Below are positions 4,901 to 62,742 of a stretch of DNA of 64,000 nt, in pieces (position 1 is the stretch's first letter; every line of letters starts with the position of its first letter). The stretch spans positions 27,514 through 91,513 of IMG/VR virus record IMGVR_UViG_3300036768_001501; one strand, 5' to 3'. The notes beneath the pieces were generated by a model, which was not told the origin of the DNA, searched no databases, and was given only the letters and a program-made list of their open reading frames with translations. The position numbers were made by a program, and so were the translations under genes. The stretch comes from a virus.

Positions 4901-7900
4901 TCGTCTGATGTTGTCTTTAAGAAGATTTATCAAGATGTCATGTATGGCAGGTTCGGCAGTGAAGAGCTTTCCCAAAAGGTTCGTGGAGTTATGTCATCTG
5001 AATGGCACCGTGTGCGCACTGCGCATGATCCATTCGAGCATGCAAGGAAACACACTGGGGCCGATATTGTTGGTGACGAATTGAAGGATGCATATATCAA
5101 GCAACGGTCATTGCATGCAATGACTCAGGATATATTCGACATCCTTCCTGGCCCAAGCCCGTACAAGTACTATGGAGTGCGTGCACCTCTATTTGTGAGT
5201 GCTGAGCCGTACGAAGAGCAAGCAAAGATTGCTCTAGTGACTCGGGCCAAGATGAAATATTTGCCAGCTTTCAAGGATAAGAATTTTATATCCGGCATTG
5301 CCCGCTTGTACGAGATTTTCGGTGGCGTAAATCCGGCAAAGCTGATTGAAAAGGCAGAAAGCGGCAATGCGATCGCTGCGCTTGAGGCCAAGATGCTCTT
5401 GCCGAAGAAGGGCGAGGATTGGTTGCAGCACCTTGGCAAACTTATTCTTTCCCATCGCGTTGGAACATCGTTGGATATATTCGGTCGCAACATCAATGAA
5501 GCCATTCGGCGCCAACGCGAGGAGGCGCGTGCGATGCGCCGACGCATGCGCATGATGAAGAAGATTGAACAGGAAGCCAGGCGCAATGATCCATTCGCAG
5601 ATAAAAAGCTAGAGGCTGCTCTAGAGGCAGAAGAGCCGTTGAAGCGTGTTTTCTCGACAATGTATGGGCGCGCTGGCGTTAAGCTTCAAGAAAAGCAGCT
5701 AGAAAGACTTGTTGACCTGACCCTTGGTAGCGATTTCTGGGCTGCGCTACGTTACCAAGACGCGCTGGAAGTTCAGAAGAAACCAGAGCGTTTTGTTATG
5801 ACCATGATGGAATTGCTCGGGTTTCCCAGCGCCTCCGTTGTTGGCATGGGTAAGCTGCCTTCGTACGAGCAGCTTGTTGAGAGCTTGGCCAAGCATGGTG
5901 ATGCTTTCGTTTCTAATGCAATCGGGATTAGCAGAGATGTTGAGCGCGAGCTTCAAATGCTTGGTCTCGGTAATATTATTGCAAATGAGGTCTCTAAGGC
6001 TTCCGGCACGGAAGAGGCGGCTAAGAAGGATCGAAGCCGCAAGAAGGAAGTTGGCGCTGCGGAACTTACGCCGTCTGAGAGTGATGCCAGCAAGATTAAG
6101 AGAGCTCTGCGCAACAAGGGTACAAAGCTTAGTAAAAAGACTGCAAACATTCCGCTCACTGCCCAAGAGCTTATCGAGATGGCAGCTAATCTTGGTAAGG
6201 GGCGGCGGTCTATCCCTGAAGGCGTAGATATTGAGTCTGCATTTGAACAAAGGAAAAAGAATATCGCTGAGTTTGCGTCCTTGCTTGGTATTGATCCTAA
6301 GTCCCAAGCCGGTCAGAAGCGCTTGAAGGGCTGGGAGGAGTACCTTGAGAAGCTGAAGGAATCTGGCAACATATCTCAGCTAGTATTTCCGAACGTCGCT
6401 GAATGGCTTTTAGCAAGCGGTGTACGCGGAAGGCCGACGCCAGAAGTGGAGGAAATGAATCTGCGCATTGCCTCCTGGCTTCATGAGCACGGTCTGCTGG
6501 CTGGTACAAGCAATACGATTCTCAGGTGGCGGAAATTTTTTGAAGAGCAAGGTGGCCAGGTCACCAATGCTATTGCAAGCCAGATGATTAAGCCTAGCAA
6601 GCCAAGCGGCCCGCAGGCGTCTGCTGTATTTACGCCAATGATGGCCGGCGGCATGTATTCTGGAATGCCGAGTGGCGGCATGTCAATGGTTGGCGAAGGT
6701 ACTTATTCGACTGGCCCGACGATGCAGTTTGGGCAATATAGCTTTACTCCGTACGCCGAGTCCGGAAGTCCGCGAGCTATGGCTGCAGGTGGTGGCGGTG
6801 GCAAGGGCGGCGGTGGCAAGGGCGGCGGAAAGAAAGGTGGTGGCTTCTTTGGATTTTTTGGTGGCGGCGGCGGCGATGACGATGGTGGAGACGATGAGGA
6901 AGAAAAGGAGCCACCTAAGAAGCAAAAGCGCGGACGCAAGAAGAAATCGAGTGAAGAAGAGATAGATTGGACTGCTCCGCGTAGCGCGACTGGCGATAAG
7001 ACCATTGATTTTATTGTCGATCGCGTCACCAAGATGGTCAGCGCAATTCGTAAGCCAGAGCTTACGATGCCAGGATCGCAGGAGTCGTTTTTCCGTGAAA
7101 TTGTGATGCCTGCGATCGAGGTGCTGAACGCACTTGGTGTTTCAGGGAAGCCTGTTTCCGGCCCATTGAAAGGTCGTGCTGGCAAGAAGCTGAAGAACCA
7201 GCTCAAGCAGATGGGGATCGATGTCGAGAAGATGAGTGACATCGATTTGGGCATTATTGCCGGCATGCCCAAAGATTTGTTTGATTATCTCAAGTATCTT
7301 TTCAAGACTACGCCAGCAACGCCACGCCAACGGTCTCGTGCCAGCGAGTCGTTGGAGCATATTACCGAGACTGCGATTTTGCAGGGCAAAGTTGCTGGTG
7401 GCGAGGTAGACCTGTACCCGTGGCAAATGCAGACCATCAAGCGCCTTGCGTCTTTGCTTGGCCCAGAGGTTGGGCAATTTGCGTACGGTCTGTTCCAGAT
7501 GGGCAACATGTTCAAGACGCTGACGCAGGCAAGCCAGTTGGCTGCATCGAGCCCGTCGCCATACCTGTACGAAAAGCGCGTTACGACAGGCCCAGCTAAG
7601 CAAACTTATATAAAGGCTCGGCGCGGGAAGGCGATGGCTTCGGCTGCAGATTTGATTGCCAAGGCGGAGTCTCAGGCCGAAGCATTCAGAATGATTTCAG
7701 AAGGTGCGTCACTGCTGCCGCCTAAAGACCTAGCAAAGGCCATAGAAACATACATGAAGACAGGTGATGAGGAGGTCTTCAAGCAGACAGTCGATTCCAT
7801 GTTACGTCGTGAATCGGCTAAGACGCAGTACGAGCAGAAGATTCTACAGAAGCGCAATGTTGTTGATGAGCTTAAGCGAATCGAATTGACCAAAAAGGCT

Positions 7901-23975: not shown

Positions 23976-26900
23976 TTGTGGCTTGGTGTAGCAACACTAT
24001 TGGCGATTTTCTCGTTGGCAACCAGTGCGCTTGCGCAGCAAGCGCAAACTGCCGTTCAATTATCTGGGGGTCCAAACACTCAATCTTATATTGAACTTCC
24101 TGGTAGCGTCACCTACCATAGCAGTACAGGGATTTCGCTTTCCGCCTGGATCAAGTGGGATGGGAAGCGCTATTCTGGAGCTAGCGAGGCCGACTGGATG
24201 TCGGTCATATTCAAGGGGAATTTTAGCTCCGGTGCTTATGGTATTCTAATTAGCCGCTCCGACAGCAATAGCTCCAACGAGATTCGCTGTTACTACGGCT
24301 CTGGTGCTTATGTATCTTACGCTGTAACAAGTGGTCTTGATACTAACTGGCACCATATCGCGTGTACCATTGCGCCAAGTCCTAGTAATAACGTCAAGAT
24401 ATACCTAGACGGCTCTGTTGTTGCGAACCAGGCCGTTACTTTTTCCATTACTGACAATACTGCTTGGCCACTCCGCATTGGTGGTCATAACGGTTCACAG
24501 TACTATTATTTCGGCGGCCTGATTGATGATGTACGTATCCACAGTTCTGCTGTAGCGTCGACCGAGATTTCCGGCTTTTACAATAGCGGCAATGGTACGT
24601 GCCAAAATACAGGCGCTTTGTCTTTCTATTATCCTCTGGACGGTCATGGCACGAACATGGTTGGGACAAGCGGGGATTATACAAATATTGTCAATGCGTC
24701 CTGGTCACCGAGCGGGAAACTTGATTGTCGTGGCGGTAAGTTCGGTCGCGATTCGGCTGGCACAGAGACAACAACATACTTGGAGTTAGCCGATTCCACT
24801 TCGCTTGACCCGTCCACGACCATGACCGTTGAGGCGTGGTTCAAGTGGGACGGCGCTACGGCAGGTGCGCCAAACGACTGGATGTCGATTGTCTCCAAGG
24901 GGACATATAGCAGCGGCGAGTATGTCATTCTCATGAACCGCGCATCTAATACGTCTCAGCGCGAGCTGCGTTGTTATTTCACCAACAGCTATGTAAGTAC
25001 TTATGTTCCTGTTGATCTGCTGACGAGCTGGAACTACGTTGCCTGCACTCGCAACTCCTCCCAGATGAAGATTTATCTAAACGGGCAGCTTATGAGCACA
25101 GTGACGGCCCCGGCCTCGCAAGCAAACAATACGTCGCCATTGCGTATTGGCGTCCAGTCCGATGGCGGGTATCGGTTTGTCGGCCTGATTGACGATGTGC
25201 GCGTTTATAATTCCGAGCTCAGTGCTTATGATATTTACCGTAGGTACAACATGGGTGGTGGTCCATGCGACGTATCTACGTCAGCAAATCCGTTCTTTGT
25301 TGCCACGCTAAATGGCGGGCGTAGAGTAGCGGTTGGTACTAGTGGCACGCCGACGCTTGCAACTCTGTCTTCAACATCACCGCTTTGGGATACTGGTATT
25401 GTGCCGTGCGCCGATATTCCAGACCAGATTGCTGGCGGGCAGGAGATTCAGTTTACCCCAACGCCGACCAGAACACCAACGAACACGCATACACCTAGCC
25501 GTACTCCAACCAATACCCCCACGAACACACCAACTAACACCCCGACATTTACACCAACGAGAACCAATACTCCGACAAACACACCAACTAGTACTCCAAC
25601 CCCAACCGTAACTCCACTCGGCGGCGGTCAGGAAGTGCAATTCACTAGCACGCCAACTAGGACCCCGACTAACACACCGACTAACACGCCTACATTCACG
25701 CACACGCATACACCAACCAACACCCCTACGAATACACCAACTAATACTCACACAAATACACCAACTAATACTCCCACAAGGACGCCGACGAACACACCTA
25801 CGAACACGCCAACAAGCACTCCTACTCCCACGGTGACTCCACTTGGTGGTGGACAAGAGGTTCAATTCACTAGTACCCCGACAAGAACACCAACTAATAC
25901 GTCCACTCAAACACCAACTAACACGCCCACTCGCACGCCAACCCACACGCCAACTAACACACCAACATTTACATTTACAAATACTCCAACCAGAACACCA
26001 ACGAATACACCTACGAACACTCCGACAAACACACCAACTAGTACTCCAACCCCAACCGTAACTCCACTCGGCGGCGGTCAGGAAGTGCAATTCACTAGCA
26101 CGCCAACTAGGACCCCGACTAACACACCGACTCGCACGCCGACTAACACGCCAACTAGGACATCAACAAGCACTCCAACCAATACTCCAACCAGCACGCC
26201 GACTTCAACCTCAACGCGAACTTATACCCCGACTAACACGCCGACCAGTACGCCGACCCCTACGGTTACCCCGCTCGGCGGCGGGCAGGAGGTTCAGTTC
26301 ACAGCTACTCCCACACGTACCCCGACCGGGACGCCGACTAACACGCCGACCGGTACACCGACTTACACCCCAACGCGGACGCCCACAAACACGCCAACAA
26401 ATACTCCAACAAATACGCCCACCCAGACATCGACGCAGACACCAACGCCGACCGTAACCCCACTAGGTGGCGGGCAGGAGATTCAGTTCACAGCTACCCC
26501 TACCAGGACTTATACCAGAACCCAGACCATGACGCCGACCGTGACTAATACCGTAACTCCAACCAGGACCAGTACGCCAACCATTACGCCAACTAGTACT
26601 CCAACCCCAACCGTAACCCCACTCGGTGGTGGTCAGGAAGTGCAGTTCACCAGCACCCCGACAAGGACCCCGACAAATACGCCCACTCGAACACCAACAA
26701 ACACTAGCACCGTTACACCGACACGAACGCCTACCCCAACATCAAGCCCAACTACTACGGTAACCAGTACTAGTACGCCAACAGTTACCCCGACGCCAAC
26801 GGCGACTCCACTAGGTGGTGGTCAGGAAATTCAGTTTACCGCTACGCCTACGCGCACTTTCACCCCAAGCATTACACCTACCGGAACCATTCCGCCCTCA

Positions 26901-27800
26901 AGCACACCAACCAGGACACAAACACCGAGCAATACTCCAACGGTAACACCTACGCCCACCCAAACACCGCTCGGTGGCGGGCAGGAGATTCAGTTCACAG
27001 CTACCCCTACCAGGACTTATACGTTTACTCCAAGCCCATCTCACACTGCTACATTTACCCCGACAGATACTCCAACTGGTCAACCCACAAGTACGCCCAC
27101 ACGCACGCCAACGTCGACTGTTACCGGACTGCCAACGAATACACCAACTGCAACTCCAACTCCGACAGTTACGCCGCTCGGCGGTGGGCAAGAGGTGCAG
27201 TTTACCCCAACTCGTACAGCAACTGGCACACCTACGCCTACATCTACGCTAACGCCGACTGGCACTCCAACTGATACGGCAACGCCAACGCCCACCCCGC
27301 TTTATTCTTATACACCTACGCCGCTCGCTACCCCAACACCATCGCCTTTAGGTGGCGGTCAAGAGGTGCAGTTTACGCCAACCAGAACCGTTACGCCCAC
27401 GCCTACAATGACCAACACAATGACCCCAACCCCAACGAATGTGCCGACCAGGACTCCGACTCCGACATTGCCTGGCACTTATACACCTACGCCCATCACG
27501 ACGCCGACCCCGAAGCGCGAAGAGAAGGTCACCACGCACAGGCTGTTTGCGGACTGCGCTGACTTCACTACTCAGACCGGAGCCTGGGTGACTAGATATT
27601 TGACTTTCTCAAGACAGCCGTACGACGGTAGCGTTGCGTACTGCTGGCTACCTGGTGGCGGTGGTAGGATTATGTCAATGGATACCCGAATTACTTCCGC
27701 GCATGCATTCCTAACTATCGGAATTTACGCAACTAGGCCAGGCAATCCGCGATTACGGGCTTGCTGTCTGATTTACAGTTCCGAGCAGAGGTTTGAATGA
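23976..27800 (+). CDS. Secreted LamG-domain protein with long Thr-Pro repeat stalk (1274 aa)
   Basis: The start is TTG 23976; it is the only in-frame start that gives a complete signal peptide ([20 protein letters not shown]) and a GGGGAT ribosome-like site lies just upstream. Two LamG/concanavalin-like domains follow (about 28-225 and 250-430; each has [11 protein letters not shown] or [11 protein letters not shown] and a GLIDDVRxY strand), a family that binds glycans. Residues about 480-1165 are a Thr-Pro stalk ([10 protein letters not shown]) broken by 11 copies of GGQE[VI]QFT. The end is a ~90-residue Cys-containing domain starting [12 protein letters not shown]. Architecture suggests an adhesin or receptor-binding fibre carried on an extended, possibly glycosylated stalk. 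The Thr-Pro stalk type also occurs in a later gene (33156). Confidence 0.8.
25433..27500 (+). repeat. Thr-Pro coding repeat array with GGGQEVQFT spacers
   Basis: Eleven spacer units encoding GGQE[VI]QFT recur at irregular 120-270 base intervals among ACN-CCN (Thr-Pro) codons. One block of 114 bases is repeated without a mismatch (25569-25682 and 26019-26132, offset 450), and about 50 bases around 26465 and 26971 are also shared. This points to recent recombination between units. Long antisense frames across this region are an artefact of the repeats. Confidence 0.9.
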
Positions 27801-33155: not shown

Positions 33156-34238
33156 TTGAAGCGGGCGGTCGGGATACCGATTTGTGTCGTTGTGGCGCTA
33201 GCGATTTATGTTATTGCTACGCGCCCAAGCAAAGTTGGCGCTTATCCTCGTCCATTTTGGTTCGGTGCACCGACAAGTACGCCTACCCCTACCAATACCC
33301 CTACACATACCCCTACGGATACGCCAACGAACACCCCAACGAACACGCCCACCAGCACGCCAACGAACACCTCGACCCATACGCCCACCTTGCCCCCCAC
33401 AAGCACCCCAACCAATACTCCGACAAGCACGCCAACTTCAACACCAACGCGAACTTATACCCCGACCAGCACGCCGACTAATACGCCGACGAGTATCCCT
33501 ACAGAGACACCGACTAACACGCCAACAAATACGCCAACACCTACGTCTACGCCGATTGGCGGCGGACAAGAAGTACAGTTTACCGCTACACCGACAAGGA
33601 CACCGACGAGTACAAGCACCAGTACGTCTACAGGAACTCCAACATATTCACCAACGCCTACAGCATCTCCGACATATACTTTTACGCCTACCGCTACCCC
33701 AACAGCCACGCCAACACTCGGGCCGAACGACTGCTGTGAGTGGCTTGAGTCCGGCACATGGCAGGCCTGCGCAATTCCAGTGGCCGGCATTTGTCCTACA
33801 GGGGCAACTGGCGTGTACGGTGCCAGGTGCGTTGACGGCGTATGTTCAACAACGCCAATTGGGAACTGTCCACCGACGCCAACGCGCACACCGACACCAA
33901 CGGAGACACCAATTGAGGTTGGCGGCGGATCAACGTTCGGCAATACATATCCGCGTGAGGAGATTGTTACAACGTATCGGCTGCAGAACGGCTGCATAAA
34001 TATAACAGTAAGCGGTTCGTCTACGGCTGTGTTCTACGTTCCGCCCAACGTCCCTGTTCCAAATTTGTCATCTTATGTAGTACACTGTAGTGTGTCTGGC
34101 AATCAGTATCTAAGCGTTGACGAGATTGCGATGGTAACCGACAGTTACGCAGTGGTTTGGGTTTCGAACGCATCGGCCTCGATGCAGGGAGGACAACTAT
34201 GTTGTCTCTTCTACAATCAATCGCAGTTATATCCTTAA
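33156..34238 (+). CDS. Membrane-anchored or secreted Thr-Pro repeat protein (360 aa)
   Basis: TTG 33156 lies 7 bases after GAGGAG; an ATG at 33152 is in another frame and too close to that site. Residues 5-22 are a hydrophobic segment ([18 protein letters not shown]) that may stay as an anchor. A Thr-Pro stalk (about 40-190) contains one [17 protein letters not shown] unit, the same spacer that occurs 11 times in the LamG gene. A Cys-rich section ([16 protein letters not shown]), a second short linker and a C-terminal domain beginning [13 protein letters not shown], comparable with the LamG protein's end, follow. It is probably a recombined relative of the LamG gene. Confidence 0.65.
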
Positions 34239-46455: not shown

Positions 46456-47697
46456 TCAGTGCGAATATGTTTGCTGCTTGGCAAAACCGCTTTCGCCAAG
46501 CTCTGAATGACAAGCGCTCAGAGTTTCTACAGAAACAATCGGCCTGGTGCGTGCACGTGGGGCAATGGATGTAGCCAGGGATTCGGCCATCGCCTTGGCG
46601 AGAAAGACAGTTTCTGACGCCGACTTACGAATAGTGAGCAAGACATTCTGCCCGTACGTTCTGCCCTTCGCATGGACGGGACAAAAGCTATCTTTCATTG
46701 TGGTTCCACGCTTAAAAGTAAGCACCTGAACTAGCGGTGCATTGCATACATCGCACGCGCCCTCCAACGCAAGAATCTTTTTCGGCTTTTTGGGGGCGAA
46801 TACAAAGCTCTTGGCGATTGCCGATGCCGATTTGAGCAGGGTTCGTTCGTCTGGCGCAGAAATCTCGGCAATACCACAATCGCCGTCTGGGTCTTGAGCG
46901 TAAATCTGCGGCGCGCCTCCACAAGTAATACATAGGTCGTCGGCTGGCCAATAACTAATAATCGTGCCAACTTTGCGATTCTCTGTATTCATGCCAGAAC
47001 TGGCGGTATATAGGTCATCCGGCTTGGCTGGGATGTTCTTGCAATTATAGACAATGATTCTTGCCTTAAGCTGCTTGCACTTTGTGCAGCGCAGGCTGTT
47101 TTCGGCAGCCATAACGCCGATCTGGGCAAAGAGAGATTGGTACATGCCTGCTCCATGAACCAGGTGGAAAAACAAACCGTGTTTTAGCGCCCTATGCAAT
47201 AATTCCATGATTTCACTCATAGTTTTCTCATCATTCATACTTTCAATAAAAGATACGCCAGTCGGGCATGGCGCAAGACGATCAACTACATGTGGAACGC
47301 TAAAGTCACGGTGGTCTTGTGTCCACGTGAATGTAGATGGCAAAGATATAGAACACGATGGGCATACGTTGCAGATGTATGGGGAAACGAAGTAGTCGAG
47401 ACAGATCTGGCATGTCTTGACCAGGTCCTTAATAGATTTGGCACTCTCTAGGGCTTCCCTAGCTGCCATTATAACCGGTTTTATCGCCTTGGCGGAGAAA
47501 TTAATTCCCACAATGGCAATCGTATGTTGGTTGCAATAATCCCACACGTCGGGTATTAATGCGGGACAACCTACATTGTGAGAAAAAACAGTGTTGTTGA
47601 GTTTCCGATCGTGCAGAAAAGTTCCGCACGTTTCCTCCGCGCGATTTCGGTCGAAACCGCAGCGACATTCGATTGTTGGTAACATTGGGTAGATCAT
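46456..47697 (-). CDS. Cys-rich multi-zinc-site protein (413 aa)
   Basis: This is the first gene of the minus block, starting at ATG 47697 with GGGGT upstream. At least five Cys clusters appear: ECRCGFDRNRAEETCG (10-25), CQICLDYFVSPYICNVCPSC (about 96-115), LRCTKCKQ (about 205), CITCGG (about 258), and CDVCNAPL with a distal FCPVH (about 320-345), each capable of holding zinc. The helical segments between them and the lack of a known core mean I cannot assign a function; nucleic-acid or protein binding is the usual role of such arrays. Confidence 0.6.
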   Translation of the reverse strand: MIYPMLPTIECRCGFDRNRAEETCGTFLHDRKLNNTVFSHNVGCPALIPDVWDYCNQHTIAIVGINFSAKAIKPVIMAAREALESAKSIKDLVKTCQICLDYFVSPYICNVCPSCSISLPSTFTWTQDHRDFSVPHVVDRLAPCPTGVSFIESMNDEKTMSEIMELLHRALKHGLFFHLVHGAGMYQSLFAQIGVMAAENSLRCTKCKQLKARIIVYNCKNIPAKPDDLYTASSGMNTENRKVGTIISYWPADDLCITCGGAPQIYAQDPDGDCGIAEISAPDERTLLKSASAIAKSFVFAPKKPKKILALEGACDVCNAPLVQVLTFKRGTTMKDSFCPVHAKGRTYGQNVLLTIRKSASETVFLAKAMAESLATSIAPRARTRPIVSVETLSACHSELGESGFAKQQTYSH

Positions 47698-47735
47698 GAC
47701 CCCAACTATATCACGGAAAGACCGGTTGGCAAGCC

Positions 47736-48008
47736 ATGAAGAAGCTATCTAGTTATATTAGATTATCCGACATCATTACAAATCAGGAAGAAGCCAACAT
47801 GGTCCTTCGCGGAGTCCGGCTGAATAAGCTATGGATATATGACGTTACCGGTAGGCGGGTTGACTATGTCGAGGCTCGGGCTAGGCTTGGCAATGATCCG
47901 AATCTTATTGTTCCAGGGGCGTCTTTGCGCGGATTTCGGGTCAAGAAAACCAAAATTAAGTATAAAAGCCCGAAATCCAGGGGCAGTATACGCGGCAGGA
48001 CTGGATAA
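47736..48008 (+). CDS. Small basic protein (90 aa)
   Basis: ATG 47736 starts 39 bases from the divergent Cys-rich gene. The product has an N-terminal SYIRLSDIITNQEEANMVLR helix, a central strand (NKLWIYDVTGRRVDYV) and a very basic C-terminus (RVKKTKIKYKSPKSRGSIRG). The last 25 codons run into the first 15-bp repeat, so either the repeat contributes coding sequence or the stop is coincidental. It could be a DNA-binding regulator for the adjacent repeats. Confidence 0.45.
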   Translation: MKKLSSYIRLSDIITNQEEANMVLRGVRLNKLWIYDVTGRRVDYVEARARLGNDPNLIVPGASLRGFRVKKTKIKYKSPKSRGSIRGRTG

Positions 48009-48079
48009 CCTTGAAATATTGTGGCAGTATACGCGCCAAGGCAAAGGGGCAGCGAAATTCCAGAGCAGTATACGCGGCA
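47983..48079 (+). repeat. Three 15-bp repeats at exact 41-bp spacing
   Basis: GCAGTATACGCGGCA is found at 47983-47997, 48024-48038 (one mismatch, CGCC) and 48065-48079. Starts are 41 bases apart, close to four helical turns, so a dimeric or oligomeric protein would see them on one face of the DNA. They lie between the small basic gene and the RT leader. Related motifs occur at 54478 and near the right end. Confidence 0.85.
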
Positions 48080-48102
48080 AGAAATATGATCTAAGAAGAT
48101 AG

Positions 48103-48659
48103 GCAGAGACCTGGATGCTTAGATATTATACCCCGGGCAACTTGACAGTGTGCTTTTGTAAAATGTCGGTCTTTTCGTCCACGATCAGAAAATTCCAGCT
48201 ATGCTTTGGTTCGCCTTGGCTTTGGTGCCAGAGCCAGCCAAGCGGCGTACGACAAATTGCGCAATTTTGCCGTACGCATGCGCGATAGCGGCGGTATTGT
48301 TACGCGCGATGTACTCGTCGCGGCAACCTGTATGACGTCGGGGGCAGGACCGACTTGCCCCCTCGCGCTACCGTGTACATAACAACATGCTTAGCTGCGG
48401 GTTACACCAGAACCACGCGCGATGTATTCGTCGCGGCAACCTGCGTTCCGTCACCGAGGCGTACTCGCGAAGACTCGGCTCAACTCCGCCACGGCACTTC
48501 GCTTCGCGAAGTGCGCTCCGCTACGTTGGGGCCTCGTCTTCGCTCCGTGCGCTCGCTTCGCGCAGCTAAGCATGCGCGCCCCGGTACGCGGCTAACTGCC
48601 CCGTACCGGGGCAAAATCTTATATAACGCAACACAACAGAAAGGAGGAACAGTACATAT
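48103..48659 (+). ncRNA. Structured leader of the RT operon, candidate noncoding RNA
   Basis: No convincing gene fits this 557-base stretch. Four strong hairpins occur: 48245-48277 (7-bp outer stem GCGTACG/CGTACGC around the palindrome AAATTGCGCAATTT), 48340-48362 (GGGGGCA/TGCCCCC), 48494-48514 (GCACTTCGC-TTC-GCGAAGTGC) and 48578-48612 (11-bp GCCCCGGTACG/CGTACCGGGGC). A 29-bp direct repeat with one mismatch spans 48302-48330 and 48415-48443. A TTGACA (48142-48147) lacks a good -10. AAAGGAGG near its end serves the next gene. RTs of retron and defence type often use a structured RNA encoded upstream; that this is one is inference. Confidence 0.45.
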
Positions 48660-49697
48660 ATGCGAACAATCAATTTTGGGTACTGGAAAGAGGAAAATGG
48701 CCAGCGCGTGTTCGTTACCACAAGCGAGCATGCGCTTGAAGTGCAACATCAAGTAGCAGAGCGGCTGGCACTGATTGCGTACCTGCTACAGCGCTGCGGG
48801 TGCGGAATCGTAAGCGCCGTTAACTTACCAGAGCTTGGCGTGTCGGCGTACCAGATAGCATCAGAAATTGCCGTACGCGCCTGGCGCCTAAGCAAGAAGG
48901 TGGACAAACAAGACATAGTGGTTGCGCACTACAAGATGCATAACATGTACGACCAGCTCGATCTTGCAAGTGTGTACGCTACGTTAGAATTTACGGCTAA
49001 CTATTGCACGTTTGGCATAGGTATCACGAAAGATTCGCACGTTGTCGCGAAGCCGTTCAGCGACCGCAAACGCATGGAGCCATTGTGCCAGTACGTGGAC
49101 ATGCTGTACGGGATATTACGAAGGATGAATGCCAATGATCGTTGGCATGGCATTGCCTCTCAGGGCAATGAGGCTCAGTACATCATGCCGTACGATCCAC
49201 TGCGCGAGCGTTTTGTCGTTGCCGCTGGACTGCCTACGTCTCCGTACATAGCTGGCTTGTATTTTGCGTACAAAGCTTACAGCAACTTAGCGCAGTTCGC
49301 GAACGACGCTATCAATAAATCTGGAATCTTATACAATGCCGTGCACGTGCCTGGCGTGTCTGTACCAAGGAGACTTGGGTACGCGCAACGCGCATGGACG
49401 TGCGGTGACTATGGCAAAACGTACTGGAGCGAAATTTCGCAGATGCATTTCTTTCACTACGGCCAAGAGGCTGTACTGATTCATACGCGCGATAGCTGCT
49501 ACCTGCCGTTCTTCAAAGACAGTACGCTCAACTATAGGGTTAACGGGTACTTATACGGTGATTCGTTCTCGTTCTACGGAAACGAAATCACCGTAGGCAA
49601 TCCAGAAGTACGTGGCGACAATTCGCCTGTGCCAGCGTCTGCACACGTGGAGAAAGCAAAAACAGTGCTACGTACATTTGCAGTGATGGGAGATTAA
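48660..49697 (+). CDS. Catalytically degenerate reverse-transcriptase paralogue (345 aa)
   Basis: ATG 48660 follows AAAGGAGG. The protein aligns end to end with the intact RT downstream: RVFVTTSEHALEVQ (16-29), matching RIFVTTSEYARKIQ; YCTFGIGITKDSHVVAK (115-131), matching YDYGLSISQASVVALG; AAGLPTSPYIAGLYFA (188-203), matching the RT4 motif GQGPCTSPHFANIM; and FFHYGQEAVLI (264-274), matching FAYSRYADDILI. The RT4 GLPTSP box is canonical, but the YADD box is YGQE and the motif A aspartates appear to be missing. It is likely a non-catalytic partner (structural, RNA-binding, or template-holding), as p51 is to p66 in HIV RT. Inactivity is inferred from the alignment by eye. Confidence 0.75.
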   Translation: MRTINFGYWKEENGQRVFVTTSEHALEVQHQVAERLALIAYLLQRCGCGIVSAVNLPELGVSAYQIASEIAVRAWRLSKKVDKQDIVVAHYKMHNMYDQLDLASVYATLEFTANYCTFGIGITKDSHVVAKPFSDRKRMEPLCQYVDMLYGILRRMNANDRWHGIASQGNEAQYIMPYDPLRERFVVAAGLPTSPYIAGLYFAYKAYSNLAQFANDAINKSGILYNAVHVPGVSVPRRLGYAQRAWTCGDYGKTYWSEISQMHFFHYGQEAVLIHTRDSCYLPFFKDSTLNYRVNGYLYGDSFSFYGNEITVGNPEVRGDNSPVPASAHVEKAKTVLRTFAVMGD

Positions 49698-49698
49698 T

Positions 49699-50796
49699 AT
49701 GCAGGATGTTGGGCACTGGACAACGATTCCCGTCGGTCGCAAGCAGCGCCGCATCTTTGTTACGACATCGGAGTACGCGCGCAAGATACAGCGCGATTTA
49801 GCATGGCGCTTGGCCGCATGGTCGTACTTCTTCAGGCACTGTTCGTGTGGCTTGTTCCGGCCTATCACCGCATATGCGCCAAAAAGCAGCGTACACGATC
49901 ACGTGCGCTTGCATATGGAATGCGCAGCGCGATGGCTCGATGCAGTCACGTACAAGATAGACATAAAGGATTGCTTCAATTCCCTGATGCCTATTGCTTT
50001 CAGGTCGTACGTGCGAGCTGTATACAGAACATTGCTCGGGTACGACTACGGACTTTCTATAAGCCAGGCAAGCGTAGTCGCACTTGGAAGTAGAAGCCTG
50101 TACGGCGGCGACAAGCTGCGTGATGCAATCTGGAGCACAATCATGAACAAGCACCATAGATTCTGGCTCAATTTCGAGTCCATCGTGAACAAGTACGGCG
50201 AGATCGAGAACAGAAAGGTTCAGGCGCTCTTCCCGTACTGCGATGACAAGCGCTTACATGTTGTTGGACAAGGCCCATGTACATCTCCGCACTTTGCTAA
50301 TATAATGCTGCTATCACTCGATTGTACCCTCATGCACAAGATACTTGACCACAAATATTCTGCCGAAGGATCCGTACATGAGATTGGGCTGTTCGGGCAA
50401 TGCGCCCACAAAAAGGCACAATTGCCTTTTGCGTACTCGCGGTACGCAGACGACATTTTAATCACCACGAGTATTGCAACGGACAAGGTGCTTGAAGCTA
50501 TCGAGTTTGCGCTTGCGCTTCACGGCCTGAAAGCCAAGTACGTCGAGCAGTACAAGCAGACAGACCGCATTAACGTCTGCGGGTTTACGTGGACGGTTGG
50601 CGAAGAAGACATCCGCCCGACGCGGCGCGTACGTAGGAGGCTACGCGCGTTGCGTCATATTCATAAAAAGTACAATGACACGAAAGGAGGGCAATTGCAA
50701 TGCTTTGAGCAATGGGCAGATGTGTACAGCGAGTCAAGGCTAGGCAGCTCGAAAGCTGCTCGGGTGCTAAAGACAATTATTGCAGCAAATGCGTAA
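49699..50796 (+). CDS. Reverse transcriptase (365 aa)
   Basis: The gene starts one base after the upstream stop, with GGGAG as ribosome site. RT fingers and palm motifs are in order: KIDIKDCF (86-93; motif A Asp88 and Asp91), GQGPCTSPHFANIMLLSLD (190-208, RT4), AYSRYADDILIT (245-256, catalytic YADD 249-252), LHGLKAKYVEQYK (274-286) and INVCGFTW (291-298, RT6-7). The basic RPTRRVRRRLRALRHIH (306-322) and a GG..FEQWADVY end look like the alpha-helical thumb of group II/retron-type RTs. It lacks a maturase or endonuclease domain, so it is not a group II intron protein. QGxxTSP is unlike the LTSQ box of diversity-generating RTs. Function in the phage is unknown. Confidence 0.9.
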   Translation: MQDVGHWTTIPVGRKQRRIFVTTSEYARKIQRDLAWRLAAWSYFFRHCSCGLFRPITAYAPKSSVHDHVRLHMECAARWLDAVTYKIDIKDCFNSLMPIAFRSYVRAVYRTLLGYDYGLSISQASVVALGSRSLYGGDKLRDAIWSTIMNKHHRFWLNFESIVNKYGEIENRKVQALFPYCDDKRLHVVGQGPCTSPHFANIMLLSLDCTLMHKILDHKYSAEGSVHEIGLFGQCAHKKAQLPFAYSRYADDILITTSIATDKVLEAIEFALALHGLKAKYVEQYKQTDRINVCGFTWTVGEEDIRPTRRVRRRLRALRHIHKKYNDTKGGQLQCFEQWADVYSESRLGSSKAARVLKTIIAANA

Positions 50797-50815
50797 GATG
50801 GAGGATACGTACGCT

Positions 50816-51949
50816 ATGCATGACCCAATGAAGGTTCTTCTTGAAGAAGCACGCAGCGGCGCGCGCGTACTGCTCGCTGGCCCACCGGCTACGGGCAAAA
50901 CTGCGCGCATTCGCGCGATTGCGAAAGAACTCGGGTACGAGTTCATTTGTACGCCGCTCCATTTGCAGGAGCGCGTTGACTTAAGCGGCGCAATTGTACC
51001 TGCTGGCGATGTTGCACGACAATTGCCGCTAGAGCTGATTGCGCGCTTGCGCAACGCCAAAAAGCCGGTACTCTGGCTGATCGACGACCTAGGAAAAGCG
51101 CCGATCGATATACAAGGCGCCCTCAAGTCGCTGATCACGCGCGCCGGCGAAGGCATGTCGCTGCCTGAACCCGTACTCGTGTGGGGCGCGACAAACCGAC
51201 CAGAAGATGCGGCTGGCGTACGCGGCCTCGATGAAGCGCTGCGAAGCGAATATGATGCCGCGTACGAAATCCAAGCGCCTATTGCGGTCGTACAAGGCGG
51301 CCAGGTGGTGGACGTTAAAATTCCCGTCCCGACCGAGCGCGGTACCGTGCCACTTGCGCCGTGGGAAGATGAAGTGGAAAACTGGTGCATGTGGGCACTA
51401 GATTATGCACGCCAGCTCGAAACAACCGATCCGCAGCGTGCGTACTGGGCCGCGCAAGTCGTGGCATTCCACCGTGTAACACGCGGCGAATGGTTGTACC
51501 GCTGGCATCACGTGCAGAATCCCGCAGAACGGTTCCCTGATTTCCGCTCGTGGCATGCTGTTATGAAGCTTCCGGAGCCGCTGCAGAAGTACGAGCCGAT
51601 TGCTGCCCGCATTGGCCATCCGGCAACTGCTGCATTCATTTCGGTACGCGAAGACATCACCAGCATGCCAACGCTAGACGAAATTCTCGCATCGCCGCAA
51701 ACAGCGCCTGTTCCAGGCGAAGGAAGTACTGCGGCAATGTACTTGCTCGCAACGCTAATTGCGATTTGGGCATCTCTCGATAACTTGCGTCACTTGATTC
51801 CGTACGTTGAGCGATTGCCGCGACAATTTGCTGCGCTTGCTGCCAAAGGCATCGCGCGCAAGTTTAAGGATAACGTTGACAAGCTTGTTGCGGTCGAACG
51901 ATGGAACAAGTTTGTTGACCGCAACAGCGACCTGTTCGACATCGAGTAG
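50816..51949 (+). CDS. MoxR-type AAA+ ATPase (377 aa)
   Basis: GGAGG (50800-50804) is 11 bases before ATG 50816, the preferred start; an in-frame ATG at 50798 is possible. Walker A GPPATGKT (22-29), Walker B LWLIDDLG (86-93), sensor 1 WGATNRPE (123-130) and a 'GLDEALRSEYD' arginine-finger region (138-148) identify an AAA+ ATPase of the MoxR/CobS type, which assembles as a hexamer and remodels or chaperones partners that carry VWA domains. The VWA protein two genes downstream is the expected partner. The gap from the RT stop is 19 bases, so co-transcription is likely. Confidence 0.88.
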   Translation: MHDPMKVLLEEARSGARVLLAGPPATGKTARIRAIAKELGYEFICTPLHLQERVDLSGAIVPAGDVARQLPLELIARLRNAKKPVLWLIDDLGKAPIDIQGALKSLITRAGEGMSLPEPVLVWGATNRPEDAAGVRGLDEALRSEYDAAYEIQAPIAVVQGGQVVDVKIPVPTERGTVPLAPWEDEVENWCMWALDYARQLETTDPQRAYWAAQVVAFHRVTRGEWLYRWHHVQNPAERFPDFRSWHAVMKLPEPLQKYEPIAARIGHPATAAFISVREDITSMPTLDEILASPQTAPVPGEGSTAAMYLLATLIAIWASLDNLRHLIPYVERLPRQFAALAAKGIARKFKDNVDKLVAVERWNKFVDRNSDLFDIE

Positions 51950-54830: not shown

Positions 54831-55625
54831 ATGGGTACCAAAACGCGACGTGGTCGACGTGGTGGGCGGCGTGTGCAGGCCGCCCGCGCGCTCGCGGCGT
54901 ACATGGCCGCTGAGCGCGGCGTGAAAAAGGTACCGCCGCTCGTGGTACGCATGCGGGCGGCGGCAATGGAGCTCGCGCGAAGTCGCGCGCTGGAAGTACT
55001 CGGCGAAAAGCCGAGCGTAGATCCGCGCCGCGCGTACGACGCAACGTACGTGCGGCAACAGCGCGCGAAGGCCGCGCGCTGGGAGGCCGCGTACAAAGAA
55101 GCGGTCTCCCGCTTCTACCCACGCGCTCTCGTTGAGATCGAGCGCGATTTGAGCGCCAGCGTGTACGAGGCGCTCAATTACGATCGTGCCCTCCCGCGCG
55201 TCTTCGGCGAGATCGCGTGCGGGATTCGCGCGATGGCGTACGGCATCCGCGCCTTCGCTGACGCGATTGGCGCGGCAGTACGTCGCCAGCGCGAGGCGCG
55301 TCGCATTGCGGCTGCGCGCCGCGTACAGCGGCAGCGCGCTACCGAAAACCGCCTGTGGTGGGAAAGCTACAAGCGGCATATTGGCGTACGGGACGAAGAG
55401 CTTGTGGACAAGCTCTTCGAGGCGCTCGAAAAGACGAGCGCCGATGACGCGCATGAGATGCGTACGCAAGCTCGCGCGGCGTACGCTATCGGCCAAGCGC
55501 TGTTCACGTTGGGCAGCGCGCTTGGCATGACGGCCAAGCGTCGCGTGTTCAACGCGAAGGCCGCGCTCGAAGTACTCGATCGTTACGCGCAGCTCCCCGG
55601 CGCGTACGTGATGGGCGACGAGTAA
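54831..55625 (+). CDS. Very basic Arg/Ala-rich protein (264 aa)
   Basis: AAGGAGG lies 5 bases before ATG 54831. The first 15 residues are almost all Lys/Arg/Gly (TKTRRGRRGGRRVQAARALA). Long helices follow, with repeated AR/RR pairs (RRQREARRIAAARRVQRQRA near residue 155). Net charge is strongly positive, so nucleic-acid binding (histone-like, nucleoid or RNA binding) is likely, but no fold is recognised. It is followed by a strong terminator, so this leader-gene unit is a monocistronic transcript. The gene is among the richest in GTAC words. Confidence 0.6.
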   Translation: MGTKTRRGRRGGRRVQAARALAAYMAAERGVKKVPPLVVRMRAAAMELARSRALEVLGEKPSVDPRRAYDATYVRQQRAKAARWEAAYKEAVSRFYPRALVEIERDLSASVYEALNYDRALPRVFGEIACGIRAMAYGIRAFADAIGAAVRRQREARRIAAARRVQRQRATENRLWWESYKRHIGVRDEELVDKLFEALEKTSADDAHEMRTQARAAYAIGQALFTLGSALGMTAKRRVFNAKAALEVLDRYAQLPGAYVMGDE

Positions 55626-59427: not shown

Positions 59428-59799
59428 GTGAGGTACTATAAGGTTGTTCTACGCTACCCAAACCAGGATTCGCGATACTCCGTGTTCAAGTACCACGGAA
59501 AGCGCGTGGAATACCGTATTCGGCGCGTAACTGTCGCGCCGTACGAAAACCTGTACAAAACGGGTTGCAAGTTGTTCATCTTTGACAACTTGCGTACCGC
59601 ACGCGAGTGGGCGGAAAGATGGCAACGCTGCAAGCCGCTTGTCAGTATGCCAGGAGAAGCGCTAGAAGTGTGGCGTGTACTGGCGGTTGATGTTTGTACT
59701 ATACCGCCTGACATTCAGCAATTCGCGCCATTACATACGCTTATGGCCGGCTATGTAGTACTCCATAAGCGTATTTGCGAAGTACCGCTATTTGTATAA
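59428..59799 (+). CDS. Tandem-array family protein 3 (123 aa)
   Basis: GTG 59428 follows AGGAGG. Landmarks: RYYKVVLRYPNQDSRYSVFK start, CKLFIFDNLRTAREWAERW (about 48-66, the YGLxVFxxLxxAxxF element) and ALEVWRVLAVDV (about 78-89). The end, LHTLMAGYVVLHKRICEVPL, is a variant of the LMAxAV segment. Member of the same unknown family. Confidence 0.65.
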   Translation: MRYYKVVLRYPNQDSRYSVFKYHGKRVEYRIRRVTVAPYENLYKTGCKLFIFDNLRTAREWAERWQRCKPLVSMPGEALEVWRVLAVDVCTIPPDIQQFAPLHTLMAGYVVLHKRICEVPLFV

Positions 59800-59800
59800 G

Positions 59801-60169
59801 ATGAGCGAGTACTATAAAGTAGTACGCCTGTTCGAGGACGGCGTACGCGGATCGGCCATCGTGGCACGGGATTGCAACCTGTTTCACGAGTACGTGCCAA
59901 GTACATGGGTACACGCGCGCCCAAATGCGCTCAAGTTTGGGCTATTCGTGTTTACGTCATGCAAAGCGGCACTAGAATTCGCCCATACAATGGGCGCGGG
60001 TTCCAACATCGTGTACGAGATTTGGCGCGTGGACGCAGAGGGCGTACGCCCACTGCCAATGGCGGACACGCTATCAGATAACCCAAGTCAGCGCATGGTT
60101 GACGCGCTGATTATGCGTGAGTGCGTTCGCCGCGTACCGCGTGGATACTGCGACAAAACGTTTGTGTAG
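59801..60169 (+). CDS. Tandem-array family protein 4 (122 aa)
   Basis: ATG 59801 starts right after the previous stop; no own ribosome site is clear, so translation is probably coupled. Landmarks: SEYYKVVRLFEDGVRGSAIV, YVPSTWVHARPNAL, FGLFVFTSCKAALEFAHTMG, VYEIWRVDAEGVRPLP, then MVDALIMRECVRRVP. It is nearly a duplicate of the next gene, the two sharing most of their first 60 residues, and probably arose by recent duplication. Function unknown. Confidence 0.72.
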   Translation: MSEYYKVVRLFEDGVRGSAIVARDCNLFHEYVPSTWVHARPNALKFGLFVFTSCKAALEFAHTMGAGSNIVYEIWRVDAEGVRPLPMADTLSDNPSQRMVDALIMRECVRRVPRGYCDKTFV

Positions 60170-60177
60170 GAACGCAC

Positions 60178-60519
60178 ATGTCCGAGTACTTCAAAGTCGT
60201 ACGCCTGTTCGAGGACGGCGTACGCGGGTCTGCTATTACGCCGCGCGAAAGCGCCTTTTTCCACCACTACGTACCAGGCGAATGGGTGCGCGTGCGGCAA
60301 AACCCGTTCAAGTACGGGTTATTTGTCTTCACTAGCTACGACGTGGCGCTGGAGTTCGCCATCGAAATGCGCATGGAACCTGGTACACTGTACGAGATTT
60401 GGCGCGTTGACGTTGAGGACCCGCGTCCGTTGCCAACGGCAGATGAGCTAACGGACAATCCGAGCGTACGCATGGTAGACGCGCTGATTATGCGCGAGTG
60501 CGTTCGCCGCGTACCGTAG
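60178..60519 (+). CDS. Tandem-array family protein 5 (113 aa)
   Basis: ATG 60178 follows AGGAAC. Close copy of the preceding protein: SEYFKVVRLFEDGVRGSAIT, YVPGEWVRVRQNPF, YGLFVFTSYDVALEFAIEM, LYEIWRVDVEDPRPLP, RMVDALIMRECVRRVP. Both end in the same REC-VRRVP tail. Function unknown. Confidence 0.72.
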   Translation: MSEYFKVVRLFEDGVRGSAITPRESAFFHHYVPGEWVRVRQNPFKYGLFVFTSYDVALEFAIEMRMEPGTLYEIWRVDVEDPRPLPTADELTDNPSVRMVDALIMRECVRRVP

Positions 60520-60527
60520 GAGTTGCA

Positions 60528-60980
60528 ATGGCAAAACAACGTTCTGCGCGCACAGTGTACAAGGTTGTGCGCAAGTACGGAAGCCGCCTGGTGTCGCTGT
60601 ATTTTAATGCGTCCGAAGCGCCAGGCGTGGAGTACGTGCCTAGCGAATGGGCACATGCACCAGATGTTATGCACAAGTACAAGTACGGACTATGCGTGTT
60701 TGGCACGCTTGAAGATGTGTTCCTGTTCACGTTCCGGAAAAGTACCGACAAGTCGCCACGTGACTTGCAAGTTTGGGAATGCGAAGCCCTTGGCGTACGC
60801 AAGCCGCGCGTAAAGCGCTTGTCGATCGGCGACGTAGTCCCAGTTGCTTTGGGTGAGGTACACATATCCAAAGCGATGCAAGACGAGTGGCCGACCGGTA
60901 CGCTGCATGCGGACGCGGTACGCCTCATGAAGCCAATACCGTGGGACAAGGTCAAGAACGAGCATAAGGTGGTGTACTAA
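60528..60980 (+). CDS. Tandem-array family protein 6 (150 aa)
   Basis: AGGAG precedes ATG 60528. Landmarks: VYKVVRKYGSRLVSLYFNAS, YVPSEWAHAPDVMHKYKYGL, CVFGTLEDVFLFTF, LQVWECEALGVRKPRVKRL and a terminal WPTGTLHADAVRLMKPIPWD. This member and the next four share a longer C-terminal half with a PTGTLxAxAVRLxxPxPW box. Function unknown. Confidence 0.72.
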   Translation: MAKQRSARTVYKVVRKYGSRLVSLYFNASEAPGVEYVPSEWAHAPDVMHKYKYGLCVFGTLEDVFLFTFRKSTDKSPRDLQVWECEALGVRKPRVKRLSIGDVVPVALGEVHISKAMQDEWPTGTLHADAVRLMKPIPWDKVKNEHKVVY

Positions 60981-60981
60981 A

Positions 60982-61428
60982 ATGAGACAACGCCTAAAAA
61001 CCGTGTACAAGATTGTGCGCACCGACACCGGTGGTAGCGCGCTTGCGTCTATATCGTTCATGTTCTCAGAGCCGGCGTGCACGCGGTACACACCGCAAAA
61101 ATGGGTACGCGCTCCGAAGGTTATGCGTAAGCGCGGATATGACCTATGCGTGTTCGACTCGCTTGAGAGCGTACACGATTTTATCAATTGGGACCAGTAC
61201 CACCCGCCGTGCAGCTGGCAGGTCTGGAAATGCGACGCCATTGGCGTACGCAAGCCGGTCGCAAACCGATTGTTCACGGATTACGTTACTAGCTTCGTAC
61301 TAGGCGAGCTAGGCGCGGAAGAAATTCGATTTCACGCCTGGCCGACCGGTACGCTATTTGCGACGGCTGTTCGACTGATCGAGCCGGTACCGTGGGATAC
61401 GGTCAGGAATGCCGTACGGGGGGAATAA
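60982..61428 (+). CDS. Tandem-array family protein 7 (148 aa)
   Basis: ATG 60982 is one base from the previous stop. Landmarks: VYKIVRTDTGGSALASISFM, YTPQKWVRAPKVMRKRGYDL, CVFDSLESVHDFI, WQVWKCDAIGVRKPVANRL, WPTGTLFATAVRLIEPVPWD. It shares its layout with family protein 6. Function unknown. Confidence 0.72.
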   Translation: MRQRLKTVYKIVRTDTGGSALASISFMFSEPACTRYTPQKWVRAPKVMRKRGYDLCVFDSLESVHDFINWDQYHPPCSWQVWKCDAIGVRKPVANRLFTDYVTSFVLGELGAEEIRFHAWPTGTLFATAVRLIEPVPWDTVRNAVRGE

Positions 61429-61429
61429 T

Positions 61430-61879
61430 ATGCGCAAAAAGAATTTAGCGTACAAGGTTGTCAACGTCGAGCGCGGCAAGTTAACGTCGCTGTCGTTCCG
61501 TCTCGGGGACCCAGCGTGCGTTATCTATAAGCCGCAGGAATGGGTACGCGCGCCATTAGCGATGCGCAAGCGCGGGTACTGGTTGTACGTATTCGCAGAC
61601 CTGGCCGACGTACGAAAGTTCTTCCTGATGGACAAGTTCGCCATCGCGAAGGAGGCGTACAACATTGAGCTGTGGGAATGCGAAACGCTCGATTTGTACG
61701 TACCCCTAGCAAGCCGGCTGGACGTGGTAGACGTCAATATGCTTACAGCCGGTACGCTACGCAAGCCGCGCGGCTGGTACCGAAGCTGGCCGGACGGCAC
61801 GCTCATGGCACGTGCTATCCGCCTGACAAAGCCAGTACCATGGGAAACGCTAGATAACCTGCCAGAGGTGGTGTACTGA
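61430..61879 (+). CDS. Tandem-array family protein 8 (149 aa)
   Basis: GGGGGA precedes ATG 61430. Landmarks: AYKVVNVERGKLTSLSFRLG, YKPQEWVRAPLAMRKRGYWL, YVFADLADVRKFF, IELWECETLDLYVPLASRL and a final WPDGTLMARAIRLTKPVPWE. Function unknown. Confidence 0.72.
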   Translation: MRKKNLAYKVVNVERGKLTSLSFRLGDPACVIYKPQEWVRAPLAMRKRGYWLYVFADLADVRKFFLMDKFAIAKEAYNIELWECETLDLYVPLASRLDVVDVNMLTAGTLRKPRGWYRSWPDGTLMARAIRLTKPVPWETLDNLPEVVY

Positions 61880-61880
61880 A

Positions 61881-62318
61881 ATGAAACACTGTTCTATCCC
61901 AACCCCACTCGTACAGGCGTACAAGATCGTGCGCTACACGCCATTTGGCGAATTTACATCGCTGGCATTACCCATGTTCCGCTATATGCATACCAAGTAC
62001 GTGCTCGGAAAATGGGTGTACGCGCAGCCTCCAATGACCGAACACGGGTACGGGCTGTGCATATTCAGAACGATCCGTCACGCCTGCGAATACCTAGACC
62101 TGACTGTAGGGCCGGTACGCGGCTGGCAGTTATGGCGCTGCGAAGCTATAAACGTACGCGCAGACCTGCCACCACCCCTGTACACAGCACATGACGCCTC
62201 GGGCAACCCAGACTTCAGCCAGATATATGAGTACCCGTGGCCGACAGGAACGTTAATGGCAGACGCTGTACGCCTAATCGAACATATCCCGTGGAAAGAG
62301 GCATTCCGTCATGCGTAA
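61881..62318 (+). CDS. Tandem-array family protein 9 (145 aa)
   Basis: ATG 61881 begins two bases after the stop of family protein 8. Landmarks: AYKIVRYTPFGEFTSLALPM, YVLGKWVYAQPPMTEHGYGL, CIFRTIRHACEYL, WQLWRCEAINVRADLPPPL, WPTGTLMADAVRLIEHIPWK. The last eight bases overlap family protein 10. Function unknown. Confidence 0.72.
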   Translation: MKHCSIPTPLVQAYKIVRYTPFGEFTSLALPMFRYMHTKYVLGKWVYAQPPMTEHGYGLCIFRTIRHACEYLDLTVGPVRGWQLWRCEAINVRADLPPPLYTAHDASGNPDFSQIYEYPWPTGTLMADAVRLIEHIPWKEAFRHA

Positions 62319-62742
62319 ACGATCCCCAAAACAATTCTACAAGATCGTACGCCGCTTGAACAACAACGAGCGCGTTTCCCTGTTTGTACCGCTATCCTCC
62401 TACCATTGCGTGATATACGAGCCAGGTAAAATCGCGTACGCTGATCCAGTCATGCGCAAGCGTAAATATGGCTTGTGCATCTTCGAGGATATGGAGCACG
62501 TACGCGAATACCTGTGCTCGATTACCAGACCGGCACTAGAACCGTCTATCGAGGTGTGGCGGTGTACTGCATGGGGCGTGTACAAACGCCTGCCAAGACA
62601 ACTAGATTGGGGCTATGTAGACGCAGGCGTTTTCAACCCGCCCGCGGTACGCATACCGTGGCCAGAAGGCACACGCATGGCGCATGCGGTGCGCCTCGAT
62701 GAGATAGTTGGTACCTACTATAATATAGTGAAGGGGTACTAA
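62311..62742 (+). CDS. Tandem-array family protein 10 (143 aa)
   Basis: ATG 62311 lies inside family protein 9's last codons. Landmarks: FYKIVRRLNNNERVSLFVPL, YEPGKIAYADPVMRKRKYGL, CIFEDMEHVREYL, IEVWRCTAWGVYKRLPRQL, WPEGTRMAHAVRLDEIVGT. It is the last of the array and shares the long C-terminal half with members 6-9. Function unknown. Confidence 0.7.
   Translation: MRKRSPKQFYKIVRRLNNNERVSLFVPLSSYHCVIYEPGKIAYADPVMRKRKYGLCIFEDMEHVREYLCSITRPALEPSIEVWRCTAWGVYKRLPRQLDWGYVDAGVFNPPAVRIPWPEGTRMAHAVRLDEIVGTYYNIVKGY

Follow-up and report, generated by a model that had tools for sequence, protein, structure and literature searches.

A putative retron-like cassette in a phage genome, with an RT-derived, YxDD-less protein beside an active-type reverse transcriptase

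Retrons, in which a reverse transcriptase (RT) copies a small RNA into DNA, are best known as systems that defend bacteria against phages. According to PMC12548924, the characteristic partners of type III retrons are a PRTase and a DNA-binding protein, and retron effectors are variable and are replaced. Two neighbouring genes of the RT family occur in DRT3, which comprises Drt3a, Drt3b and a noncoding RNA (ncRNA); PMC13174585 describes both enzymes as active and places the ncRNA downstream of drt3b. Here we describe a locus in a 64,000-nt stretch of virus DNA (the window; positions 27,514 to 91,513 of IMG/VR record IMGVR_UViG_3300036768_001501), which we read, with somewhat better than balanced confidence, as a phage-encoded retron-like cassette consisting of an ncRNA (msr-msd), then an RT-derived protein without YxDD (P0001), then an active retron-type RT (P0002). 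The coordinates of its parts are collected in Table 1.

The two open reading frames adjoin on one strand with a single base between them, just as the first-pass annotation had reported, and the start codon of P0001 stands behind a good ribosome-binding site, AAAGGAGGAAC. The phage setting, also proposed at that stage, is real because the 91.5-kb virus record holds terminase, portal, RecA and DNA clamp genes together with a SNF2 helicase gene. Hairpin DNA is a substrate of SbcC/SbcD-type nucleases, and the SbcC/SbcD-like genes of this phage are therefore worth remembering: RecA, a calcineurin-like (SbcD-like) phosphoesterase and an SbcC/Rad50-like ATPase are all phage-encoded (L066:604-1632, L066:13385-14551 and L067:2822-5044). 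Several further features of the window were recorded in passing. A repeat of ~30 nt (containing GCAGTATACGCG) occurs in three copies at an exact spacing of 41 nt (47971-48082), just 5' of the retron-like region; small related proteins with starts like YYKVV or YKIVR form a tandem family at 59428-62742; and a gene for a 1274-aa protein (23976-27800) has internal repeats at 25429-27022, with related sequence recurring at 33284-33712. The ARAGORN tRNA calls at 5877-5971 and 55474-55568 lie inside long ORFs and are probably false.

Table 1 Features of the putative cassette and its upstream flank, numbered from the first base of the window
Feature	Position	Strand	Basis
Whole cassette, ~2.4 kb	48386-50796
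Duplicate of the msr hairpin, 38 nt long, with 87% identity overall and 97% over the first 29 nt	48302-48339	+	repeat comparison
Putative msr-msd ncRNA of a retron, 189 nt, enclosed by the 14-bp a1/a2 stem	48386-48574	+	perfect inverted repeat, fold
a1 arm, CATGCTTAGCTGCG, containing TTAGC as candidate priming-G site	48386-48399	+	inverted repeat; G assigned by analogy with known retrons
msr hairpin, 7 bp, tip UG-UAUU-CG	48418-48435	+	resembles type III-A msr tip UG-UAGU-CG
Putative msd, a long hairpin with imperfect pairing that would be copied into cDNA	48455-48555	+	predicted fold
a2 arm, CGCAGCTAAGCATG	48561-48574	+	inverted repeat
Strong hairpin between msd and the first ORF, without a T run	48578-48612	+	predicted fold
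P0001 (345 aa), putative non-catalytic partner lacking YxDD, with RT ancestry in its first ~200 residues	48660-49697	+	sequence comparison with P0002
P0002, 365 aa, active-type retron-like RT	49699-50796	+	D88, YADD 249-252; profile ranking

The RT blocks of P0002 stand in their regular order, with RRIFVTTSE..RKIQ as block 1, then HVRLH, KIDIKDCF as motif A, GPCTSP..AN as block 4, SRYADD as motif C and finally VCGF. The catalytic residues first assigned to it are confirmed, motif A supplying Asp88 and Asp91 and motif C the YADD. In PADLOC the top model was the retron RT_III-A (2.3e-14), the best DRT/UG model reached 1.3e-6, and Drt3a was among the weak matches (7.5e-5). In NCBIfam the retron St85 RT came first (8.1e-12, below the curated cut-off), with group II introns at 3.9e-6. 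An hhalign comparison with a profile built from 47 sampled RTs, most of them retron-type and P0002 not among them, gave 99.2% with an E value of 2.4e-19. Judged by its sequence, P0002 is a retron-type RT; it matches the RTs of retron type III-A best and those of DRT, group II and CRISPR systems less well, a placement that reflects a ranking of models. The retron motifs are only partly kept, the NAxxH position reading HVRLH and the VTG position VCG, which counts against a retron; some retron RTs in our sample vary as well, L046 having DAAELH. P0002 represents a deep branch: the nearest phage RTs found, in viral contigs, are 24-35% identical to it, and alignments with retron RTs reached only distant RTs. 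The AlphaFold model of P0002, made from two sequences, was too poor to use (pLDDT 34).

Retron hallmarks had initially been described as not all present, which missed an msr-msd-like element in the 560 bases upstream of P0001, beside an RT that groups with retron RTs. Within this interval lies a perfect 14-nt inverted repeat with a gap of 161 nt, in the right orientation. Such a repeat arose in 4 of 5000 shuffles of 48100-48659, and the chance rate of a repeat of at least 14 nt is about 0.7-0.9% of 370-nt tiles. In the predicted plus-strand fold, the repeat pairs as a closed 14-bp stem around two or three small hairpins and one of ~100 nt; the z-score is -5.2, and no shuffle was equally good. 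The left arm contains TTAGC as a candidate site of the priming G, which retrons have in a conserved AGC near the 5' arm, but here the motif is inside the 14-bp stem. As predicted from this one sequence, the layout is that of a retron msr-msd, with an a1/a2 repeat and msr and msd hairpins. An Rfam search found no RNA family. A small inverted-repeat transposon was also considered as the identity of the 189-nt element and rejected, its flanks having no target-site duplication.

When the identical procedure was run on sampled retron-type loci, it yielded similar upstream elements, repeats of at least 12 nt within 350 nt upstream being present at 10 of 70 RTs versus 14 of 916 other tiles. With retron type III-A (for example L062, L063 and L080, and the III-A1 ncRNA as in PMC12548924) the cassette has in common the best-matching RT family, an upstream ncRNA closed by an inverted repeat of 10-14 nt or longer, a hairpin tip of the form UG-NNNU-CG and a TAG near the 5' arm. 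The tip reads UG-UAGU-CG at the type III-A loci L010, L018, L062, L063 and L080, and the background of the motif is about 0.005 per 700 nt; because the motif was defined only after the control loci had been inspected, this likeness supports the relationship without proving it. The type III-A link of the tip agrees with the best match of P0002, the two being independent data. In several respects, however, the cassette is unlike type III-A. No PRTase or DNA-binding partner was detected by PADLOC in the eight flanking proteins tested, and no known retron effector, type III effector included, was found next to the cassette. Moreover, an RT-derived protein stands between the RNA and the RT, an extra small hairpin precedes the msr hairpin, and P0002 is a distant match. 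The overall msr sequence goes unrecognised by the type III-A covariance model, which left the element undetected and likewise missed other type III-A loci such as L009 and L064. We class the cassette as retron-like, a new variant whose membership of type III-A is unproven.

BLASTP aligns P0001 with P0002 at E=3e-9 and 26% identity. Residues 1-50 account for most of this similarity, whose local score over the whole length has z=15; beyond residue 45 the local score was equalled by 81 of 2000 shuffles. A collinear block with the pattern MN..RW..PY..VV..GLPTSP, spanning ~149-200 of P0001 and ~143-202 of P0002, was matched by none of 1000 shuffles when the alignment was held near the diagonal. After residue 200, in the last 145 residues, no similarity to P0002 was found, 507 of 2000 shuffles being equally good. 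The first-pass annotation had called the two proteins homologous along their length and had set YGQE opposite YADD; relatedness is detectable only in the first ~200 residues, and the YGQE placement is unsupported because it falls beyond them. Its statement that P0001 has no motif A aspartates is doubtful as well, since H90 and QLDLASVY (D101) align with the conserved His and the motif A Asp in an alignment of P0001 with 29 other RTs, uncertain at ~20% identity. The motif A Asp may thus be kept in P0001 as D101. No DD occurs anywhere in the P0001 sequence; the YxDD site is therefore truly absent, and the protein should be catalytically inactive. Over at least its front half, P0001 derives from an RT. 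What stands of the proposed dead/active pair in a phage is an active RT next to a relative whose catalytic site is incomplete, the RT homology of P0001 being shown for about the first 200 residues. In profile searches, P0001 matched no database profile, toxin and effector families included (PADLOC and NCBIfam among those searched). PDB sequence searches gave no RT match, and the AlphaFold model of P0001 from 30 sequences (pLDDT 51) was too poor for a PDB fold search from it to be meaningful.

The loss of detectable similarity to P0002 after residue 200 would also suit a different role, in which P0001 is the true effector: it would have borrowed an RT N-terminal segment for docking or RNA binding, its unrelated C-terminal half would act, and the RT/msDNA complex would restrain it. 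The position of the gene inside the cassette, where a partner would sit, and the replaceable nature of retron effectors (PMC12548924) argue in the same direction. We nonetheless regard this as rather unlikely, given that P0001 matches none of the known effector or toxin families and that the picture would be the same if P0001 had arisen from an RT and diverged quickly once catalysis was lost.

The pairing of a retron-type RT with an RT-derived, YxDD-less partner was found nowhere else in the collections searched. Viral and genome contigs searched with patterns for one or both proteins, and phages searched by tblastn, returned no relatives of the pair or of P0001, and no P0001 homologue was present at any RT locus scanned, a second RT-like ORF being seen only at Aminobacter L011. 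Searches of open-access papers turned up no retron reported to have an additional RT that is inactive. The Aminobacter locus, on a plasmid (L011:1-3156), has two adjoining RT genes, the second of which encodes a type VII-A1 retron RT-DUF3800 fusion.

That no relative was found that could confirm the RNA bears on another possibility, namely that the pair acts in some other phage DNA metabolism as an RT with a dead helper subunit, the upstream inverted repeat being due to chance or regulatory. The negative result of the type III-A msr model would fit this, as would the other phage RTs related to P0002 (L021-L024, L026-L028 and L031). These are retron-type, phage-encoded like P0002, include its nearest viral-contig relatives, and have in common with it the C-terminal PTR..RR.LRA..H and QG.PTSP blocks, but they differ in being single RTs without a second RT-like neighbour and without a clear upstream inverted repeat. 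Against such a role, the repeat, fold, position, TTAGC and hairpin tip are all retron-consistent, and we judge it improbable. Together with L032, where a perfect inverted repeat of 14 nt directly follows the RT, the loci L021, L022, L023, L024, L026-L028 and L031 make up a phage retron-type RT clade without a recognised effector. Retron-type RTs are also present in large Staphylococcus (MarsHill) and Listeria (LPJP1) phages (L016:1148-3894 and L017:2344-3873); in MarsHill, a 1.2-kb annotation-free gap upstream of the RT holds a 12-nt inverted repeat.

The comparison with DRT3 made at first reading holds insofar as two neighbouring RT-family genes and an RNA element are present, and the weak Drt3a match of P0002 could be counted in its favour. 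In contrast to DRT3 as described in PMC13174585, the element here lies upstream, the RTs belong to other families and one of the two proteins has no YxDD. P0001 had no Drt3 match in PADLOC, and P0002 scores far better with retron models than with Drt3a. A DRT3-like dual-RT system, in which both proteins would make or shape DNA with a templating ncRNA, is thus very improbable. A diversity-generating retroelement (DGR), which might come to mind for an RT encoded by a tailed phage whose tail genes are large, is already contradicted and was rejected: no template/variable repeat pair differing at A positions and involving 47690-51000 was found across the 91.5-kb record, and block 4 of P0002 is GPCTSP, whereas DGR RTs have the SQ form.

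For the favoured reading, the retron-like cassette, we infer transcription, cDNA, a complex and a function from the genes, motifs, inverted repeat, predicted fold and RT family observed directly. The RNA would be made together with the operon and closed by the a1/a2 stem. P0002 would then bind the msr hairpins, use the 2'-OH of the TTAGC G as primer and copy the long hairpin, giving branched msDNA. Through its RT front half, P0001 would join the RT/RNA complex as a non-catalytic subunit with a structural, RNA-binding or controlled-effector role, taking the slot where retrons usually carry an effector. A more specific form of this proposal, which we offer only tentatively, is a phage retron whose RT is a heterodimer of one active protein and a dedicated dead paralogue, the latter within the msDNA-protein complex or as a controlled effector, possibly with its own msr-like RNA, represented by the second copy of the msr hairpin.

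For the phage, the cassette would perhaps serve in excluding competing phages or in interfering with host defence, and a role in replication may also be proposed. If this reading is true, a large tailed phage would carry in its genome a retron that has an RT relative in place of the usual effector, which would make it a retron used by a virus, and the cassette would represent a new way of completing the RT/msDNA/partner complex.
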